From Pseudomonadota bacterium (GTDB lineage: Bacteria; Desulfobacterota; Desulfobulbia; Desulfobulbales; CALZHT01), in the NCBI GenBank assembly GCA_018823135.1, contig JAHJJF010000063.1:1-49263 (forward strand): a stretch of DNA of 49,263 nucleotides. The letters are read 5' to 3'. Both the position numbers and the translations under genes were made by a program. How positions within the stretch are numbered: the stretch's first letter is position 1; each line of letters opens with the position of its first letter. The notes under the pieces are model-generated. The model worked only from the letters and a program-made list of their open reading frames with translations, made no database searches and was not told the DNA's origin. Positions 39,000 through 49,263 of this stretch are shown here, one piece after another.

Positions 39000-39299
39000 T
39001 ATTAGAATTATAATCGTCATAACCGGAACTTGAATGTATTTCGAACAAAAGGTGAGCCGGAGCGGGCATGGATTTTGCTATGCTTTACCGTGTTAGGGAG
39101 TGCCATGATGAACGGTTTCATATTAAATGAAAGTCAGGATTTGAAGGCGGCGTGCGATATTACTGTTTGATTTTGTTTGTTTTTTGTGGGTAAAATTAGA
39201 CATGTATCATTTTTTTCATGGCTCAGCGTTCTGTTAATTCGATACCTTGAGGACCTAACCGAGAAACAATATTTCAGGGCAAATAATTTTACGAAGAAA

Positions 39300-39932
39300 A
39301 TGCTAGATCATACAAAATCGAATTATTCTAAAGGTTTTTCTCTCATAGAACTGATAGTCGTCATGGTGATTATCGGTATTCTTGCAACCCAGGTGGTTTT
39401 CAGTTTTACCAGGCCCCTTAGAAAAGTGAAGTCTACAGCCCTTCAGTTAAGGAGTGATATAAACCTTGCCCGAGCCGAGGCGGCAAACCGGGCTCAGGCT
39501 GTCACCATTGATTTTTTTATGGGCACTGAGGATGGATATCGACTGTGCATTGATACGGGAGCTGCCGGTTGTGCTGATGATTGTCCAGGTCCTGGTTGCA
39601 TAAAAGAGGTTTCGTTCCGCAGAGAAGTTCAGTTCTACGATGCGAATGCGACAAACGGCCCAGACAGGGACGCCGGAGTGGGCACCAATCGCCCGGCTGT
39701 TGGCTCTGATGGTGTTGATTTTCCTCTTGCATTACCTGGGGTTGACAACAAGTTTTTGATGCAACCAAACGGCACCGCCTCGGAAAAGGGAGCAATTTTT
39801 ATTTATGCCCCTGAGGCGGCAGATCACACGGTCATGCTGGCGGTTCCCCTGCGGGTTGGTGTTGAGGATACTTCAGGGCGGGTGTGGGTTGAGATCTGGG
39901 ACCGGGGTACGTCAAGCTTTGGGCGTAAATAA
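39300..39932 (+). CDS. fimT: GspH/FimT-type minor pilin
   Basis: FimT/FimU-like minor pilins prime type IV pilus assembly from the inner membrane. The start at 39300 (MLDHTKSNYSKG) gives a short leader before the PilD cleavage site G^FSLIELIVVMVIIG, with the Glu at +5. A longer frame is open to 39177 but would add an untypical 41 residues. The GspH-type arrangement RSDINLARAEAANRAQAVTI follows the helix. Two to four cysteines cluster in AAGCADDCPGPGC, possibly a disulfide loop. 210 aa. It is first in the operon, 41 bp before the PilE-like gene. Confidence 0.88.
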   Translation: MLDHTKSNYSKGFSLIELIVVMVIIGILATQVVFSFTRPLRKVKSTALQLRSDINLARAEAANRAQAVTIDFFMGTEDGYRLCIDTGAAGCADDCPGPGCIKEVSFRREVQFYDANATNGPDRDAGVGTNRPAVGSDGVDFPLALPGVDNKFLMQPNGTASEKGAIFIYAPEAADHTVMLAVPLRVGVEDTSGRVWVEIWDRGTSSFGRK

Positions 39933-39973: not shown

Positions 39974-40444
39974 ATGAGACGAAATTTTTCTAAATCTTCC
40001 GGGTTTTCCCTGATTGAGCTGATGATCGTTGTGGCGATTATCGGTTTGCTTGCAGCCGTGGCAATGCCTGCCTATTTCAAGCATATACTTCGGGTGAGAC
40101 AATCGACCTGTGTTCAGAACCTCATTGATGTGAAAACCGCCCAGGAAAAATATTACGCCCTTTTTGATACCTATGCCAGCACGGGCACCCTTGAAACCGG
40201 TGTCGATGTCTTTGCTTCGTATGTGAATTTTTCGGCATCAAACACCTCCATGTGTGTTTTTAATATCACCGGCGGCACGACTTCATTTACCGCCAGGCTT
40301 TGGGGGGACCTTGATCGGGATGGTTTTGCCACAGACTGCTGGAGTATCTCAAGCACAAGCGCTCAACCGGCAACAACTGGCGGTGTCGGCTGTGTAGTCA
40401 ATGGCGAAGGGTTTAGCTTTTCCACGCTCGGAAATTTATTATAA
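39974..40444 (+). CDS. pilE: Type IV pilin, PilE/PilA-like
   Basis: This pilin has an 10-residue leader and the site G^FSLIELMIVVAIIGLLAA with the +5 Glu, followed by the rest of the N-terminal helix (AYFKHILRVRQSTCVQNLID). The C-terminal part is rich in Ser/Thr/Gly with three more Cys that may close the D-loop. 156 aa. GAGGGG lies about 7 bp before the ATG. By position in the operon it is a PilE-type minor pilin; it could instead be a major pilin, and sequence alone does not decide. Confidence 0.9.
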   Translation: MRRNFSKSSGFSLIELMIVVAIIGLLAAVAMPAYFKHILRVRQSTCVQNLIDVKTAQEKYYALFDTYASTGTLETGVDVFASYVNFSASNTSMCVFNITGGTTSFTARLWGDLDRDGFATDCWSISSTSAQPATTGGVGCVVNGEGFSFSTLGNLL

Positions 40445-40452
40445 CCATAAAG

Positions 40453-41187
40453 ATGATTTTGCAGGAGTTAACCTACGGGATGTTCGGACCAGGCGAGATA
40501 AAACAACGGAACAAGGGGTTTACCCTTGTCGAAATGATGGTTGCCCTTTTCCTCGGGATTATTGCCATGGTGGGCATTTATAAAACCTATGTCGCCTATA
40601 GCACTGCGGCTGACAACCAGGGCCAGGCTCAGGAATTGCAGCAGAATCTGCGGGTCAGCATGGCGATGATGGTAAGAGATATCCGCATGGCGGGTTTTGA
40701 TCCTACAGAAATAGGTGGAATTGGTTTTGAAGAGGCAACCACCCATAAAATTCAATTCCGGATGGATATTAACCAGGATGGAGATGTAGCTGATGATAAT
40801 GAAGACATAAAGTATTTCATTAAGGATATTGATGGAGACGGCTTTTTTGGCCTTGCCCGGCACAATGTCAATACCGGTGTGGAAGAATATATTAATGAAA
40901 ATATTGATCCGGTAAACATAATTGCCGGTGAGTATCCGCTGAATTTTGTTTTTATGGAAGGGATCACGGTTCTGCCGACTCCTGTTACCGGAAGCGATCG
41001 GGATAGAATCAGGTCCGTTGAAATCGCCCTGGTTTTGAGAAGCACCAACGAGGACTATTCTTTCAAAAACACAAATTCATATAACAATCTTCAAGGTCTA
41101 CAAATATTGCCTGCAAAAAATGATAATTTCTACAGACGACTGACAACCGCCAAAGTCAATTGTCGAAATATGGGACTCGATGATTAG
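40453..41187 (+). CDS. pilW: PilW family minor pilin
   Basis: PilW works with PilV, PilX and PilY1 in the priming complex at the pilus tip. The cleavage site is KG^FTLVEMMVALFLGIIAM, then AQELQQNLRVSMAMMVRDIRMAGFDP, the hallmark of PilW. An acidic DxD-rich loop (DINQDGDVADDNED and DIDGDGF) could bind calcium. The start may be 40453 or 40480 (MFGPGEIKQ), the second having AGGAG 12 bp upstream. It begins 8 bp after the pilE-like stop. Confidence 0.9.
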   Translation: MILQELTYGMFGPGEIKQRNKGFTLVEMMVALFLGIIAMVGIYKTYVAYSTAADNQGQAQELQQNLRVSMAMMVRDIRMAGFDPTEIGGIGFEEATTHKIQFRMDINQDGDVADDNEDIKYFIKDIDGDGFFGLARHNVNTGVEEYINENIDPVNIIAGEYPLNFVFMEGITVLPTPVTGSDRDRIRSVEIALVLRSTNEDYSFKNTNSYNNLQGLQILPAKNDNFYRRLTTAKVNCRNMGLDD

Positions 41188-41196
41188 AGGGAAGGA

Positions 41197-41763
41197 ATGA
41201 TAGGAAGTAAAGGTTTTTCAATACTTGAAGTGCTGTTCGGCATTACCGTTTTTATGGTGGGTATGCTGGGGATCGCCGCGCTGCAGATTTCGTCGGTGCA
41301 GGGTAATTATTTTTCCTCGAATCTTACTGAGGCAACCTTTCTTGCCACCAGTAAATTCGAGGAGTTGATGGATCTGCCGTATGATGATCCTGATGACCCT
41401 GATGACCCCTTAGATGATAGGAATGGTGATTCAGCCGGGCAGGATAATAATGCTGCTGGCCCGGATGGCGTAGATGATGACGATGACGATGATGACGGTA
41501 ATCCAGATGGTATTAGTGGGCCAGATGATGTCATAAATTTCGGACTGGATGCAACCGATTATACTTCGCCTGGTGTGGCGCTGTTTGTAGACCATTCAGA
41601 AAATCCGCCCCGCAGAGGCGGTATGTATGTAGTATCATGGAATGTGGCAGTGGACCACCCGCTGCCTAATTGTAAAACAGTAAAGGTCTGGGTGGAGTGG
41701 ACAATTAAGGGCGATCGGAAAGAACGGATTTCCATGGCAATGGTCAAAGAAGAGGTGAAATGA
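41197..41763 (+). CDS. pilV: PilV family minor pilin with Asp-rich insert
   Basis: The leader is short, MIGSKG^FSILEVLFGITVFMV, with the +5 Glu, then GMLGIAALQ, as in PilV. Residues 62-110 are unlike the family: YDDPDDPDDPLDD, then a run of eight Asp, then GNPDGISGPDD. This insert looks like a calcium-binding or disordered acid loop. The last third (VSWNVAVDHPLPNCKTVKVWVEW) is the usual beta part. GGAAGGA precedes the ATG. The stop overlaps the pilX start by 4 bp. Confidence 0.9.
   Translation: MIGSKGFSILEVLFGITVFMVGMLGIAALQISSVQGNYFSSNLTEATFLATSKFEELMDLPYDDPDDPDDPLDDRNGDSAGQDNNAAGPDGVDDDDDDDDGNPDGISGPDDVINFGLDATDYTSPGVALFVDHSENPPRRGGMYVVSWNVAVDHPLPNCKTVKVWVEWTIKGDRKERISMAMVKEEVK
41383..41496 (+). 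repeat. GAT/GAC codon repeats within pilV
   Basis: GATGATCCT-like 9-bp units repeat at 41383-41418, coding DDP repeats, and GATGATGAC-type triplets repeat eight times at 41473-41496, coding eight Asp. All are multiples of three, so slippage would change length and not frame. Confidence 0.7.
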
Positions 41764-42371
41764 TGGGGGCGCGTTTCCTGATTAATAACCAGAGAGGATC
41801 AATACTCAATATTGCCCTGCTCATTCTTATGACATTGACTCTTGTTGTCATATACATGAGCCGGTCCACCACCACTGATGTGAAAATTGCCGCAAATGAA
41901 AAAGCCGAACGGGTCAGATTTTATAGTGCTGATGGCGGTGGGGATATTGGTATTGAAATTTTTGAACAAAATGTTGCCTGCCCCACTGGTTTCGCTGGAA
42001 GTGCCACCACGGGTGCAATTATTCAAGGGAAATTTATTGTAAAAACCCTTGATATCAGAGCGAATATCGAAAAGGCAACAGGGTTTGTAATCTCAGATTC
42101 TTCGACAAGAGATGTTTATTGGCCGCCAGGAAGTGCTTACGGGGATCAGGGGTCAACAAGTTTGGCCTTTGGCGGTGAAACATTTCATGGCCAGGGGGCT
42201 TCCCTGCAGATGTCTGCGGGCTATGAAGGAAAAGGAAAAAGCGCAGCAAGCGGTGGCGCGCATCTGTTGTTTGATATCTGGTCACAATATTATGGCTTGA
42301 ATAGCGCAAATGCCCAGATCTGGCTTCGCTGGAAGCACTTGATCGGTCAAGAGGATGATTGCATCTATTGA
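41760..42371 (+). CDS. pilX: PilX family minor pilin assembly protein
   Basis: PilX-like proteins open with a cut site followed by a hydrophobic helix and a conserved charged segment. Here QRGSILNIALLILMTLTLVV is followed by IYMSRSTTTDVKIAANEKAERVRFYSADGG, whose core STTTDVKIAANE and YSADGG fit PilX. There is no Glu at +5, as is usual for PilX. The C-terminal half (GSAYGDQGSTSLAFGGETFHG) is not conserved. 203 aa. It overlaps pilV by 4 bp and precedes pilY1 by 25-50 bp. Confidence 0.82.
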   Translation: MMGARFLINNQRGSILNIALLILMTLTLVVIYMSRSTTTDVKIAANEKAERVRFYSADGGGDIGIEIFEQNVACPTGFAGSATTGAIIQGKFIVKTLDIRANIEKATGFVISDSSTRDVYWPPGSAYGDQGSTSLAFGGETFHGQGASLQMSAGYEGKGKSAASGGAHLLFDIWSQYYGLNSANAQIWLRWKHLIGQEDDCIY

Positions 42372-42420
42372 TAAAGGTATACAGGGGTAAAAGAAGATGA
42401 AGAGGGCTGGAGGAGATTCC

Positions 42421-45400
42421 ATGAGATCGAAATTAAATAATCGAACGGCTTTTCTGTTTTTCATTATGTTGACGGTTACAGCTTTGACTTTCCCTGGTTC
42501 GGGTTTTGGCGATCCCTGCGGTGAAGGGGTCGGCACTCCGCCATTTCTGGCCGAGGGTGTGCCCCCTAACCTTATGCTCCTCATTGATAACTCAGCAAGC
42601 ATGTATGAGCTGGCCTATGATGATCTTGCCGACCCCGGGTTTTGCAATGATGATAGCTATGTACCGAAATCATCAGTTGCCGCCTGGGCTGACGCTACGG
42701 TCTATGCGGCTGAGAAGGTTGTCAGTTACAATAACGGCACAGAAACTAAATGGTACATGACAGCAGCGGGCGGCACCTCTTCCGGCACCACCCCTCTGGA
42801 TGATACCGGTGTCACCGACTGGGCCGTGTTTGGGCAGACTTATGCCGGCTATTTTACTCCCGGTTCCTGGTATGAATGGGATGGAGCACAATTTGCCCTG
42901 ATTTCTCCTGCACCGGCTGATGCCGCTGCCGCCTGCAGCGGTGCTGGTACAGAATACACCGACGCGAATAACAGCGATGTCTGTATCACCATCAACGCGG
43001 CTTCCGTCACCTCTTTTGCCGCCAAGGGAAATTATCTCAACTGGGCCGCAGCCTCGAAATTTGATGTCGAAAAAAAGATTCTTACCGGCGGTAAATGGGA
43101 TTCATCAACCAACCGGCTGGTCATGGAGTCCCGCGGTTGTCTGGGTCGCAAAATGATCAAGCAGATCCCCATCAAGGATGCGGGCGGTACTGTGTATTAC
43201 CTCACTTTGGGTATCAAGGCCAACTCCAGTGACCTGACCCAGATCGAGATCTTTGAACCCACCTCCACCGGCTTCCAGTTCGGGGGCGGCGCATGCGAGG
43301 CGGCCTTAGTAGAAGATGCCAAAGGAAATGCGGCAAACTTAGCCCAGGACTGCATGGAACTTGGTGCGCAGAATGAGTCATTTGCCAATTCAAACGGGGC
43401 GTTTAATATTTCTTTCAGTACCTGCTGGCGTCACCCGAAAATTACCAACGGGAATGTCACTGCCTTATCGAATCAATGTGCGGGGATTTATGGTGATGAT
43501 GTGAATCCTTATGACCCTCTGCCCTCCTGGGCGGACGGGGTGGTCTATGCTTCAGGCACCACGGTGACAGATAACGGGAAATGGTATGAGTCGCAGACTG
43601 CCGGTACGGCAACCGATACCGGTGACGGCACTCCTTTGGATGCGACACGTGACTCTGGCGTGACCTGGCTGCAGGTACCCAGGAATTATATCAATGCAGC
43701 AGACAGCGGGTATATCTGCTGGGGTAATCAGGCCACCGGTGAAGGATATATTGGCCGCTGTTTTAATGTTACCCAGGCGGCATTGCCGGCGATTCCGGGT
43801 TCAGGCTGTGTGGATACTGCCTGCGCACCCAATGGGCGCCCCTATGGTGGTGATGATGATGCAAACTGTATAGGCGGTGTTCTCTACAGATGTCCTGCAG
43901 GGTCTTCGTGGAATAACGGCGCAGGGCAATGCAAGCAGGGTCCTACCTTATATGCCTGGGAAAAGCAGCAAACCTGCGGCGTAGGGGGATCCCCGGCCAC
44001 TTCATTAGCTGGGGCATGGGTTGCCGGTTATGATAGTCTGGGGGAAGATGTAAATGCTAATGAAGAGCTTGATGCCGGAGAGGACACCAACGCCAATGGC
44101 ATACTGGATCAAGGTTGCATATATATGGCCATACGCGATTTCTGTTCGCCTTTTTATGATCCCGGCGTGATTGATCCTGCTTCGCCGGTTACATCCGTTG
44201 CTGATGAACATTTTCCCAACCTGCCGGCGATCTTGATGGAAATAGCCCTGCAGGGCCAGCTCAGAGAACCAATTGCCACCTTGAACGGTTATATCAAACA
44301 GACCACTGATCCTGAAGGTTTGATTGACGATTTTGCCGCGGATATCCGTATCGGCGCCATGCAGTATAACCAGATGGGTACCCGGAGCGAATGTGATGCC
44401 TCGCCCAAGCTGACCCACAGGTTGTATGATGATTGTCCGGCGTCCAGCCAGGACGGCGCCAAGCTCATCGCCTATATGGATAACGGCACCGACCACACCG
44501 CAAGACTGGTGCAGGCGATCAATGATATTAAAGCCAATACCTGGACACCCATTGCCGAGGCCTATTATGAAGCTCTGGGGTATTTCACCCAGCAGGACAC
44601 CGTCGCTCTCGACATGCGGTTTGACGATGACGATTTCCTCCGCGACAGCGATTACAGCAAGGCATTTCCCTTTGCCAGTGTCGATGCCAATTACGATCCA
44701 GTGCCCTCCTGGCTGTCAAGGCGGAATATTGCCACTGCGGCTTCCGACTGGACCGTTGTTCCGTTCCCGCTGTTGACTCTGGTGAAAGATGCCGCGAACA
44801 AGTTGTACTGGACTAACGCTGGCGGCACTCCGAGCCTTTATCAAAGAGACGGCACCACCTTTGCCACCGACGTGGCTGAAGATACAGCTGTCTCCTGGGT
44901 GCCGGTGGACCCGGTGACCAATTACTGCCAGAAGAATAATATTCTCATTATTACCGACGGCGGTTCCACCGTGGATGTCCATCCTGATATTATAAGTAAA
45001 ATCGGAGATTATGACGCTGGCGGCTCCGAGAACGCAGCCTGCGGCAATACGGTTGCCGGAGTATATAAAGGGTATTACGGCAGCACCTATCTGGATGACC
45101 TGGCGAAATACGCCTATGCAGCGCCCGCGACCACCCTTTATAAGGACGGCCAACTCCTCGACGGCGAGGGCATTGACCAAGACAAGCAGAATATCACCAC
45201 CTATGTGGTCACTGCCGGCAAGCTGCGCGTTACCGGGACCGATGAGTGCAGCCCTGACGTTTTGCTGGCCAATACAGCGACCAACGGCGGCACCAGTCTC
45301 TATGCCAGTGAGGACCCGGAGCAATTGGAGGCCAATCTCCGTTCAGTCATGGAAAGCATCAGGGCCGGAACCGCATCCGGGTCGGCCTCTTCGGTCATCT

Positions 45401-48048
45401 CCGCCTCCCGCGGCGGCGAGGGCGCGATTTACCAGGCCATTTTCTGGCCGAGATTTACCGACGAGGATATTGTCTGGATCGGTGATGTGCATTCGATGTT
45501 CATCGATTCTCTTGGCAAAATGTATGAAGATACTGATAGCGACGGGAAATTTGATGACGACGGCACCGATAAAACAGTTGTCCTCTATTATGATGAGAGT
45601 CTGAATACGACAATGGCCTGTAATGACGGTGTAAACGCTGACAGGGATGGCTGTCTTGGCACACCGAAGGCGTTAAATGCGGTGAACTATCTCTGGTCTG
45701 CCGCGGAATGGCTATCCGGGGTTGGAGCTGCTGATATTACAGCCCAACGGGCTGATGCAGATTATATTTCACATACACAGAAACGATATATCCATACTTG
45801 GATTGATCTGGATAACAATGGTGTGGCTGATTTAGCTACTGAATGGATTCCTTTTGTCAGTGGAGCTTCAGGCCCGACCGGCAAAGCCCCCACCCCACCG
45901 CATGCCATCTCTGTGGATTTTGCCGCTGCAGACTCCACTGAAGTCGAGAACATCATCGACTGGGTTCGTGGCGATAATACTGTCGGTCCTGCCTATCGAG
46001 ACCGAGAAAGGAATTATTCATTTGATTCCAGTGTCGCTCCGACCGACATAATCTGGAGATTGGGTGATGTAATTCACTCAACACCAATGGCTGTTACCCG
46101 TCCTTCAGAGGGGTTTCATATGCTTTACGGAGACGATTCCTATGCAAAGTTTGCACAAAGGTATAACAAGCGAAGGCATGTTATCTATTTCGGCAGTAAT
46201 GACGGCATCCTTCATGCCGTGAACGGCGGGTTTTATGACAGCTCCCAATTGCGGTTTTGCGTTACCGCAGACTGTTACGTTGAAAATGATGCGGTCAAGA
46301 CTCCGGCATCAGAGAATAAACCGGAGCTCGGTGCAGAGCTTTGGGCCTATGTTCCCTATAACATATTGCCCCATTTGAAATGTCTGACGAGTCCTTCGTA
46401 TGAACATAAATATTTTGTGGATCTGCGACCGAGGATTTTTGATGTGCAGATTTTTTTAGAAGAAGCGGCCTGTTCGCCGGATTATACCAACCCCGCCTGT
46501 TTTCACCCTGGTGGCTGGGGAACCATCATGGTCGCCGGAATGCGTTTCGGCGGCGCACCGATTGATGCCTGGACAATTGACGGTGATGGTGTTGGCGGCG
46601 CGGATCAACCCACCGACCTCCGTAAATTTATTTCATCGTATATGGTTTTTGATATTACCGATCCGGAACACCCGCCGACCTTTTTAGGTGAACTGACAGA
46701 TCCTGACAAAACCAGCCCCAAGGCTGCCATGGGCTATGCGACAGTGATTCCTACGGTTATACCGATGTATGATAACAAGGGAACCGCAACTACAACCGAT
46801 GATGCGACTTACTGGTATCTCGTTCTCGGCAGTGGCCCAACCGAACTCAGCGGTAAAAGCGAAGTTACTCAGTTTGCGAAACTCGCAATCTATCCGTTAA
46901 ACCAGTTGACCAATGGGTCGGGATCAGCATTTATGATACCAAATAATCTCCCCTCAACTGTTGCTGTCGGTAATATACCCCCACAAACTGGAGTTTTTAC
47001 GCTTCCGGGTGCGAGAAGTTTTGTGTCTGATCCCATAACCGTGGATTTTGACTTGAAGGAGAACTATATGGCCGATGCAGTTTATTTTGGAACTGTAAGC
47101 GGCGATTTCAAGGATACAGGGGCGAAACTCGGCTGGGGTGGTAAATTTTATCGGCTTGTGACCCGCAAGTGGGACGGAAGCAAACAAGTTATTACCCTTC
47201 CCAGTGATTGGGATGCGTTATTAAGCGCAGCGAGTCTGGACAATCCGGCTATCTTGGCAGACATTGGTCAGCCGATAGTTGCATCGCCAACTGTTGGTAG
47301 CGATCGTGTTGATACGTGGGTGTATATCGGCACCGGTCGGTTTTTTGATGAATTTGACAAGTCGGATTCCAACAGTAATGCCACCCAGACTTTCTATGGT
47401 ATAAAAGAACCTCGAGTCTCAGTCGCAGGTGAATTTACCTGGGGACAAGTCGCCTTAGCAGACCTTGTAAACACTTCATTGGTTGCCAAGGTAGCATCGA
47501 ATGCCAATCCCTTCCAGGCATCTATTTATTGCATAAATCCTTTTGCTCCGAATGTTCCGGGGGATAATTGTCCCGGCACGACCTTTGGCGCCCCTTTCCC
47601 TGGGACTATCGGGGCTGAAACATTCCAGGATCTTGTGGACTATATCAAGATCAAGGCCGGCTGGAAGAGAAATTTAAAACGATCTCGTGAGCGGAACCTT
47701 GGACAGGGCACGCTCCTCGGCGGTCTTTTGACATTTACTACATATCAGCCATTTGAAGACAAGTGCCTGCCTGAAGGACTTGGGTATCTCTACGGTGTCT
47801 ATTACGGAACCGGTACTGCATTCCACACCGGTGTGTTCGGAGATCATGTCACCGGTGATGCAGTCCAGGATGTTGTGGAGATGGGACGCGGCCTTTCAAC
47901 CACCCCGAATATCCATATCGGTAAAGCCGAAGGCGGCAAGGCCTTTGCCCAGACCAGCACCGGGGCAATTATTGAAATCCCGCAACCCAATCTGCCGCTC
48001 GGCAACGTGAAAACCGGAAGAAAGGATTGGCAGGAACTCTGGCAATAA
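42421..48048 (+). CDS. pilY1: PilY1-like pilus tip adhesin, very large
   Basis: PilY1 is a tip adhesin and calcium-controlled regulator of pilus extension. The start at 42421 (MRSKLNN) has GGAGG 7 bp upstream and a signal peptide after it; 42397 is an alternative. An N-terminal von Willebrand-type domain has the metal-site motif LIDNSAS (about residue 56) and ILIITDGGST (about 842). It is broken up by repeated inserts that each carry W-x-x-x-x-x-Y and GTTPLDDTGVTDW-like ends (about 88-135, 366-416, 762-830), similar to small sugar-binding modules. A DVNANEELDAGEDTNANG stretch (about 546) and DTDSDGKFDDD (about 1036) look like calcium loops. The C-terminal propeller includes YFGSNDGILHAVNGG (about 1257). 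At 1875 aa it far exceeds P. aeruginosa PilY1 (about 1160). Confidence 0.93.
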   Translation: MRSKLNNRTAFLFFIMLTVTALTFPGSGFGDPCGEGVGTPPFLAEGVPPNLMLLIDNSASMYELAYDDLADPGFCNDDSYVPKSSVAAWADATVYAAEKVVSYNNGTETKWYMTAAGGTSSGTTPLDDTGVTDWAVFGQTYAGYFTPGSWYEWDGAQFALISPAPADAAAACSGAGTEYTDANNSDVCITINAASVTSFAAKGNYLNWAAASKFDVEKKILTGGKWDSSTNRLVMESRGCLGRKMIKQIPIKDAGGTVYYLTLGIKANSSDLTQIEIFEPTSTGFQFGGGACEAALVEDAKGNAANLAQDCMELGAQNESFANSNGAFNISFSTCWRHPKITNGNVTALSNQCAGIYGDDVNPYDPLPSWADGVVYASGTTVTDNGKWYESQTAGTATDTGDGTPLDATRDSGVTWLQVPRNYINAADSGYICWGNQATGEGYIGRCFNVTQAALPAIPGSGCVDTACAPNGRPYGGDDDANCIGGVLYRCPAGSSWNNGAGQCKQGPTLYAWEKQQTCGVGGSPATSLAGAWVAGYDSLGEDVNANEELDAGEDTNANGILDQGCIYMAIRDFCSPFYDPGVIDPASPVTSVADEHFPNLPAILMEIALQGQLREPIATLNGYIKQTTDPEGLIDDFAADIRIGAMQYNQMGTRSECDASPKLTHRLYDDCPASSQDGAKLIAYMDNGTDHTARLVQAINDIKANTWTPIAEAYYEALGYFTQQDTVALDMRFDDDDFLRDSDYSKAFPFASVDANYDPVPSWLSRRNIATAASDWTVVPFPLLTLVKDAANKLYWTNAGGTPSLYQRDGTTFATDVAEDTAVSWVPVDPVTNYCQKNNILIITDGGSTVDVHPDIISKIGDYDAGGSENAACGNTVAGVYKGYYGSTYLDDLAKYAYAAPATTLYKDGQLLDGEGIDQDKQNITTYVVTAGKLRVTGTDECSPDVLLANTATNGGTSLYASEDPEQLEANLRSVMESIRAGTASGSASSVISASRGGEGAIYQAIFWPRFTDEDIVWIGDVHSMFIDSLGKMYEDTDSDGKFDDDGTDKTVVLYYDESLNTTMACNDGVNADRDGCLGTPKALNAVNYLWSAAEWLSGVGAADITAQRADADYISHTQKRYIHTWIDLDNNGVADLATEWIPFVSGASGPTGKAPTPPHAISVDFAAADSTEVENIIDWVRGDNTVGPAYRDRERNYSFDSSVAPTDIIWRLGDVIHSTPMAVTRPSEGFHMLYGDDSYAKFAQRYNKRRHVIYFGSNDGILHAVNGGFYDSSQLRFCVTADCYVENDAVKTPASENKPELGAELWAYVPYNILPHLKCLTSPSYEHKYFVDLRPRIFDVQIFLEEAACSPDYTNPACFHPGGWGTIMVAGMRFGGAPIDAWTIDGDGVGGADQPTDLRKFISSYMVFDITDPEHPPTFLGELTDPDKTSPKAAMGYATVIPTVIPMYDNKGTATTTDDATYWYLVLGSGPTELSGKSEVTQFAKLAIYPLNQLTNGSGSAFMIPNNLPSTVAVGNIPPQTGVFTLPGARSFVSDPITVDFDLKENYMADAVYFGTVSGDFKDTGAKLGWGGKFYRLVTRKWDGSKQVITLPSDWDALLSAASLDNPAILADIGQPIVASPTVGSDRVDTWVYIGTGRFFDEFDKSDSNSNATQTFYGIKEPRVSVAGEFTWGQVALADLVNTSLVAKVASNANPFQASIYCINPFAPNVPGDNCPGTTFGAPFPGTIGAETFQDLVDYIKIKAGWKRNLKRSRERNLGQGTLLGGLLTFTTYQPFEDKCLPEGLGYLYGVYYGTGTAFHTGVFGDHVTGDAVQDVVEMGRGLSTTPNIHIGKAEGGKAFAQTSTGAIIEIPQPNLPLGNVKTGRKDWQELWQ

Positions 48049-48488: not shown

Positions 48489-48678
48489 CGATGATTGCAT
48501 AAAAAAAATATCAATTAACGGCTTTGTTGGAAATTGTACCGATATAACGCTGGTTTTAGCTGGCGCGATTTTTGCTTAACTAAAATGCGAGGAGAGAGGC
48601 GGGTTTCTCCCTGCCTGCGCTCATGACATCAAGAATTTCAATGTTTTTTGAAGCGCATTCATTTTTTCGAGAGTGGTT

Positions 48679-49263
48679 ATGATTGAATTCAACAAGACAC
48701 ACGGGTTTTCTAAACTGCTGAACGCAAGGCAGGGTTTTTCTCTTGTAGAGATGCTGGTAGTGCTCGTAATTGTCGGCATTCTTGCCGTACAGGTTGTCAT
48801 TAGTTTCACTTCACCTGTCGTGCCGTTAAAAGGAGATGCCTTTGACTTACGGAGCAATATGAACATGGCCCGAGGGGAGGCAGTTAAGCGAAACGAACAG
48901 GTTTTGGTTGAATTTTTTAATAACACAGATATTCCTCTCGTTGGTGATGGAAATGACGATGGTTACATGATTTGTCTTGATAGTTTATCGACGAATACCT
49001 GCATAGATGAACCTGCCGCTAATATTATTAAAAGTGTTGTTTTTAATGACATTGTTCAATTTTATGGCACCCTGGCTTCAGGAGGCCCTCCTTTTGATGG
49101 AGCGGGGAATAATCCACCAGGCGGTGCCCTTGGGGATGGTGTAAGCTTTGTCGGCAATGCATTTTTAATGCGGAGTAACGGCACAACTAACCAGGATGGC
49201 GCTGTTTATCTTTATGTGCCGGATGCTGACCCGACAAAAATGCGTGTAGCACCATTTACTGTA
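48679..49263 (+). CDS. Second GspH/FimT-type minor pilin, partial
   Basis: I translated 195 codons from ATG 48679 to the right edge without a stop. The leader ends RQG^FSLVEMLVVLVIVGILAV with the +5 Glu, and the next segment, LRSNMNMARGEAVKRNEQVLVEF, matches the GspH layout. It aligns with the first FimT-like protein (39300): QVV-SFT-P after the helix, DGY-x-x-C-x-D, V-F-x-x-VQFY and FLM-x-x-NGT, but with only moderate identity, so it is an older paralogue and not a fresh copy. Its own promoter and long leader precede it. GAG-rich sequence near the ATG is a weak ribosome-binding site. It is probably the first gene of a second minor-pilin set. Confidence 0.9.
   Translation, partial: MIEFNKTHGFSKLLNARQGFSLVEMLVVLVIVGILAVQVVISFTSPVVPLKGDAFDLRSNMNMARGEAVKRNEQVLVEFFNNTDIPLVGDGNDDGYMICLDSLSTNTCIDEPAANIIKSVVFNDIVQFYGTLASGGPPFDGAGNNPPGGALGDGVSFVGNAFLMRSNGTTNQDGAVYLYVPDADPTKMRVAPFTV

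Follow-up and report, generated by a model that had tools for sequence, protein, structure and literature searches.

CBM5/12-type modules inserted in the predicted vWA domain of a divergent PilY1-like pilus adhesin and its relatives in Desulfobulbia

Among the described type IV pilus tip adhesins, the closest to the protein analysed here are the PilY1/PilC proteins with an N-terminal vWA domain, such as P. aeruginosa PilY1 and M. xanthus PilY1.3, in which a vWA domain with a MIDAS motif is combined with a C-terminal beta-propeller and the gene of which ends a minor-pilin cluster. It is known that PilY1 proteins differ strongly in their N-terminal domains, with no evident rule behind the variation. 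In A. baumannii ComC, a T4aP tip adhesin with lineage-specific inserts of one element at differing vWA positions, the insert can serve in adhesion, twitching and transformation (PMC10374093), and M. xanthus PilY1.1 bears a lectin-type domain, DUF4114, proposed to bind exopolysaccharide (PMC9109919). Also relevant are two groups of small domains, namely, the CBM5/12 modules (PF02839; ChiA1, 1ED7; ChiB, 1E15; chitin deacetylase, 4NY2; CjCBM5, 6Z40) and modules resembling them in the tail fibres and tailspikes of phages (Pam1, 7EEA residues 587-642; Milano, 8FQC; 7-7-1, 9RKV; PHROG tail fiber families).

The protein described here has the general plan of P. aeruginosa PilY1 and M. xanthus PilY1.3 and differs from them in its length of 1883 amino acids, in a T4P_PilY1 match that stays below the cut-off and in three CBM5/12-type inserts. 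As in ComC, a single kind of element is inserted at different vWA positions in different lineages, but the ComC insert is a Tyr-rich, finger-like protrusion whereas the one found here is a CBM5/12-type module. Like M. xanthus PilY1.1, it is a PilY1 with a domain of a sugar-binding type; however, DUF4114 belongs to another family and replaces the vWA domain, whereas the modules described here are inserted into it. These modules share with CBM5/12 the length, the three-stranded fold, the core W/Y/Y/W residues and a profile match, but they lack the exposed aromatic pair and Trp687, possess a conserved second half of their own (GGTS...D-x-GVxW) and lie within a pilus adhesin, unlike the known CBM5/12 modules that stand beside an enzyme. 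The best fold match is to the phage modules, and both kinds presumably act at the outer end of a filament; yet the sequence identity is weak, about 20%, and the PilY1 modules are embedded in a bacterial vWA domain. In the library searched, no publication joined PilY1 with CBM5/12, which is not proof of novelty, and searches on cable-bacteria PilY1 and on type IV pili with CBM found nothing.

The PilY1-like protein and its minor-pilin neighbours

The window, that is, the whole stretch of 49,263 nucleotides that was analysed, comes from the genome of a bacterium of the Desulfobulbales. In it, five minor-pilin genes, with GspH, N_methyl, PilW and PilX_N matches in Pfam, lie upstream of the PilY1-like ORF:

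39177..39932 (+): minor pilin of the FimT/FimU (GspH) type; Pfam N_methyl 2.6e-8, GspH 4e-5
39974..40444 (+): PilE/ComP-like minor pilin; Pfam N_methyl 4.7e-8, ComP_DUS 1.5e-4 (below cut-off)
40453..41187 (+): PilW-like minor pilin; Pfam N_methyl 4.3e-8, PilW 1.2e-5 (just below cut-off)
41197..41763 (+): minor pilin in the PilV position; Pfam N_methyl 0.008 (below cut-off) and place in the cluster
41760..42371 (+): PilX-like minor pilin; Pfam PilX_N 4.1e-8
42397..48048 (+): PilY1-like tip adhesin ORF, 1883 aa, final gene of the minor-pilin cluster
46060..46224 (+): PilY1 beta-propeller motif region (GDVIHSTP...YFGSNDGILHAVNGG), the best T4P_PilY1 stretch, positions 1-58

The pilin in the PilV position (window 41197-41763) contains an Asp-rich stretch (DPDDPDDPLDDRNGDS...DDDDDDDDGNPDG) for which calcium binding is possible. 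Downstream of the PilY1-like gene, a second FimT-like minor pilin begins (window 48673-49263) and runs off the contig end, so a further minor-pilin cluster may follow there.

When searched at full length, the 1883-aa protein gave no T4P_PilY1 line in Pfam, no match in PDB with phmmer and nothing useful in NCBIfam. For its C-terminal piece, T4P_PilY1 gives 9.9e-5, which does not reach the curated cut-off. The same domain is recognized in each of the 23 C-terminal pieces of family members that were aligned (the best at 1.2e-16), and a profile built from these pieces retrieves the solved P. aeruginosa PilY1 structure, 3HX6, with E=1.2e-17. The C-terminal matches and the match to 3HX6 rule out the reading, suggested by the silence of the full-length Pfam search, that this is not a PilY1; the protein is therefore a divergent PilY1. 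Relatives in named genomes, which a single-sequence scan did not find, were recovered by an alignment-based scan, the nearest being from an uncultured Desulfobulbaceae MAG (L093). The genome of the window also contains, on a short contig (G000:C104:1-4837, L073), a second, partial PilY1-like ORF of 907 aa, with approximately 30% identity and no detectable modules.

The vWA scaffold and the inserted modules

The N-terminal part of the protein was examined as a predicted model of 970 residues with a mean pLDDT of 73.5. Foldseek returned no match to this model under E 0.001, and the vWA domain was then revealed by VIA, with a Z of 15.4 to 4fx5 over 169 residues spread across model positions 4-956 and Z > 13 for many further vWA chains. 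The matches include the pilus adhesins SpaC, PitA, GBS104 and S. sanguinis PilB. The aligned vWA segments are scattered along nearly the whole model, and the DxSxS...T...D motif is complete (D64, S66, S68, T717, D854), so that the vWA domain has an intact MIDAS motif and a predicted metal site. The features of the interrupted domain are as follows:

42586..42600 (+): MIDAS motif DNSAS, aa 64-68, after vWA strand 1 (from sequence and the vWA model alignment)
42676..42837 (+): module M1, aa 94-147, site 1a; held-out HMM 37.0 bits; folded in the N-terminal model
43519..43686 (+): module M2, aa 375-430, site 2; held-out HMM 31.1 bits; Pfam CBM_5_12 E=2.4e-4
44545..44547 (+): MIDAS threonine T717 (TWTPIAEA), from sequence; W-T-P and E are invariant in relatives
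44743..44916 (+): module M3, aa 783-840, site 3; held-out HMM 23.4 bits; own-genome profile 9.9e-10
44956..44958 (+): MIDAS aspartate D854 (NNILIITDGG), from sequence

In the first phmmer pass, M1 and M2 matched one another, along with dozens of segments from further PilY1 proteins. To guard against circularity, the held-out HMM was built from the modules of other genomes, leaving out the window as well as L033, its nearest relative. With this HMM, M1-M3 score 23.4-37.0 bits, whereas the highest score among 1000 shuffled versions of the protein, 500 of them shuffled as a whole and 500 locally, was 11.8 bits, which rules out a chance repeat of low-complexity sequence. Over the whole genome of the window organism, the module profile matches at M1, M2 and M3 and nowhere else. 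The three segments are thus copies of one module of about 50 aa. They lie where the first-pass annotation had placed three repeats (42680-42830, 43520-43675 and 44700-44915) and end as it described, in GTTPLDDTGVTDW (M1), GTPLDATRDSGVTW (M2) and GTTFATDVAEDTAVSW (M3). The common W...Y...KWY pattern that it proposed holds in part: KWY is exact in M1 and M2, whereas M3, which is preceded by a short linker, has KLYW and a divergent N-terminal half. As read from the sequence, M3 keeps W785, F790, V796 and Y804 at a spacing near that of the family.

All three insertions have empty counterparts in relatives. M1 is inserted between NDDSY (the end of ...FCNDDSY) and YAGYF (YAGYFTPGSWYEW), a site that is empty in L035, L050 and L037; M2 is between NPYDP and the NYINAADSGYICWG stretch, with the site empty in L033, L035, L036 and L047; and M3 precedes DPVTNYCQKNN, with the site empty in L036, L037 and L039 and occupied by a related module in L033. 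Together with the vWA model match, the empty sites and the site map bear out the earlier proposal that the segments interrupt a von Willebrand-like part of PilY1. When all modules were mapped to the window protein (100 proteins), about five insertion sites were recognized:

Site 1a, aa 93: M1
Site 1b, aa 163-164: 1-4 modules; the commonest site
Site 1c, aa 280: module pairs, mostly in Desulfobacterales
Site 2, aa 374: M2; occupied only in the window protein among the 100 proteins mapped
Site 3, aa 750-782: M3

In 18 three-module arrays, modules of equal rank are 39-41% identical across species, compared with 29% between ranks; each rank is therefore kept as a separate entity, and the arrays seem to be ancient and to have escaped homogenisation.

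Distribution and kinship of the modules

An iterated search found 97 modules, 1-6 per carrier protein, in 34 of the 62 PilY1-like proteins sampled from Desulfobulbia, the other 28 having none; this total is a lower bound, given that the module HMM missed two additional, divergent CBM5/12-like segments, which lie at site 1a of another PilY1 ORF (L041), between the MIDAS motif and GYF. In the class, 38 of 193 genomes have the module, with most matches in PilY1-sized ORFs, and in the phylum sample, 8 of 297 genomes, counting that of the window, have a match. Named carriers include Desulfobulbus, Desulfopila, Desulfogranum and the cable bacteria Candidatus Electronema and Electrothrix; in the Nitrospirota and Geobacteraceae relatives that were fetched, no module was found at the threshold used. 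From lineage to lineage, the modules differ in number and position; what remains constant is the vWA/MIDAS scaffold, together with the C-terminal beta-propeller.

Modules of this kind also occur in other proteins. In a genome of the same family as that of the window (G092:C37), a DUF6701 protein (L174:668-3976, plus strand; Pfam 1.4e-113) carries a CBM_5_12-type module (residues ~755-799, 1.5e-5) between two DUF6701 stretches. DUF6701 is the family that includes MshQ of the MSHA pilus, and a second pilus adhesin may here have acquired an insert of this kind in parallel. In addition, in secreted-looking proteins of several related genomes (L172, L173, L175 and L176), collagen-like (GPxG) repeats follow a CBM12-like module close to the N-terminus.

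The first-pass annotation had compared the segments to CBM5/12, and HMM search and structure prediction both gave matches. Of 48 modules of the family, 37 match Pfam CBM_5_12 (the best at 2.3e-8); taken singly against the cut-off of 26.2 bits, the window modules do not reach it, with 21.5 bits for M2, a weak 11.4 for M1 and no Pfam match for M3. Against PDB, the module profile retrieves the CBMs of chitin deacetylase (9.5e-8), the CBM12 of ChiA1 (1ed7, 5.3e-6), ChiB and the chitin-binding domain 2rts, as well as phage tail fibres and a part of a contractile injection system. The PHROG tail-fibre matches range from 2.1e-6 to 0.1 and concern some of the modules.

M2, which is of low confidence within the 970-residue model (block means of about 48-65), was modelled alone on its alignment with a pLDDT of 91.3 and three strands. 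Foldseek with this model returned mostly chains bearing CBM5/12 and phage tail proteins, with probabilities up to 1.00 and a best E of 0.024, which for so small a domain is not significant alone. VIA-align gave a Z of 7.9 to the Pam1 tailspike (7eea), 7.2 to chitin oligosaccharide deacetylase (COD), 5.7 to ChiB and 4.8 to 1ed7, modest values given that a Z < 8 can reflect a common arrangement. The predicted M2 model has the small, three-stranded antiparallel 'ski-boot' fold, with Z values of 4.8-7.2 to CBM5/12 domains, and sequence profile and structure comparison lead to the same PDB chains. The modules are thus assigned, by profile and predicted fold, to CBM5/12 in ancestry and structure.

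The binding face and possible roles at the pilus tip

The CBM5 residues that bind chitin are two exposed, adjacent aromatics (Y-W or W-W), conserved in nearly all members, whereas two further aromatics, Y265 and W299 of CjCBM5, belong to the core (PMC8449059). The core aromatics are kept in the PilY1 modules, namely, W4 in 91 of 97, Y10 in 92, Y, F or W at position 23 in all 97 and W44 in all 97; the positions taken as equivalent to CjCBM5 Y265 and W299 hold Y in 92/97 and W in 97/97. At the two positions of the exposed pair (AKWW motif), no aromatic is present at either in any of the 97 modules, M1, M2 and M3 having A/G, T/A and A/G, respectively. The equivalent of ChiA1 Trp687, the chitin-binding residue of CBM12, is Trp in 1/97 and T, L and T in the window, the alignment in this gapped loop being approximate. 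With both determinants gone, canonical chitin binding is judged unlikely, and a chitin-type affinity does not follow from the fold assignment. The affinity for chitin or any polysaccharide that was originally proposed is so far unsupported: the exposed aromatics of CBM5 and CBM12 are missing, and the nearest fold match is the receptor-binding domain of a phage tailspike. The three-module arrays contain conserved rank-specific aromatics, in particular W/Y17-18 and Y24 of the second module, which could form a new binding face.

With slightly better than even confidence, we read the inserts as recognition modules displayed at the pilus tip, the ligand of which is a glycan other than crystalline chitin. 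A published model places the N-terminal domain of PilY1 at the very end of the pilus (PMC13190605). Modules of ~50 residues with the CBM5/12 fold, carried in vWA loops of the adhesin, would then be interchangeable recognition elements that, as on phage tail fibres, contact the substratum first because the N-terminal domain forms the pilus end. Their ligand would most likely be a polysaccharide or surface glycan, and not crystalline chitin held in the textbook manner, because the modules have lost the canonical aromatic platform. Avidity would arise from a number of weak contacts at a single tip, and force could be passed on to the vWA/MIDAS domain. By analogy with ComC and M. xanthus PilY1.1, it is most likely the modules that would make the first contact with a glycan-coated surface.

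The main rival to this recognition role, and a serious one despite being the distinctly less probable of the two, is that the modules are ligand-free spacers or stiffeners that lengthen or rigidify the tip or shield the vWA loops. Phage T4 capsid proteins are among the fold matches of M2, and the CBM5/12-like folds are inserts there as well, with a structural role in the usual view; the loss of the chitin-binding aromatics, and the tandem arrays of up to four modules with shared or abutting end residues (VDST/DSTW), which would be rod-like, fit such a role. However, the rank-specific aromatics hint at a surface that is in use, and the variation in number and place between close relatives, as well as the location in the adhesion domain at the tip, also argue against a mere spacer.

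Quite improbable, in our estimate, is a protein ligand, be it a surface protein of a partner cell or the organism's own minor pilins; the modules are embedded in a vWA domain, vWA domains commonly bind proteins and the canonical sugar site is lost, but nothing in this analysis points to a protein partner and the nearest relatives act on glycans or belong to phage receptor-binding proteins. The least probable, by a little, is the idea of the first-pass annotation that ordinary CBM5/12 modules anchor the pilus on chitin or cellulose particles, which has family homology and fold in its favour but not the binding residues (0/97 and 1/97), in a genome without any further module of this profile.

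The PilY1 of the window thus belongs to an ordinary gene family and has an unusual, well-defined elaboration. The targets of type IV pilus tips, and the way in which PilY1 alters its specificity, are a standing problem. In this protein, each variable part can be identified and counted, has a clean empty site in relatives and lends itself to deletion or to separate expression, which makes the problem testable. Tentatively, and with somewhat less than even confidence, we suggest that Desulfobulbia and their relatives, the cable bacteria included, may possess a modular system of recognition at the pilus tip, in which CBM5/12 modules resembling those of phage tail fibres, with a remodelled binding face, come, go and form stacks at a few permissive sites of the PilY1 vWA domain and would set what the pilus holds.
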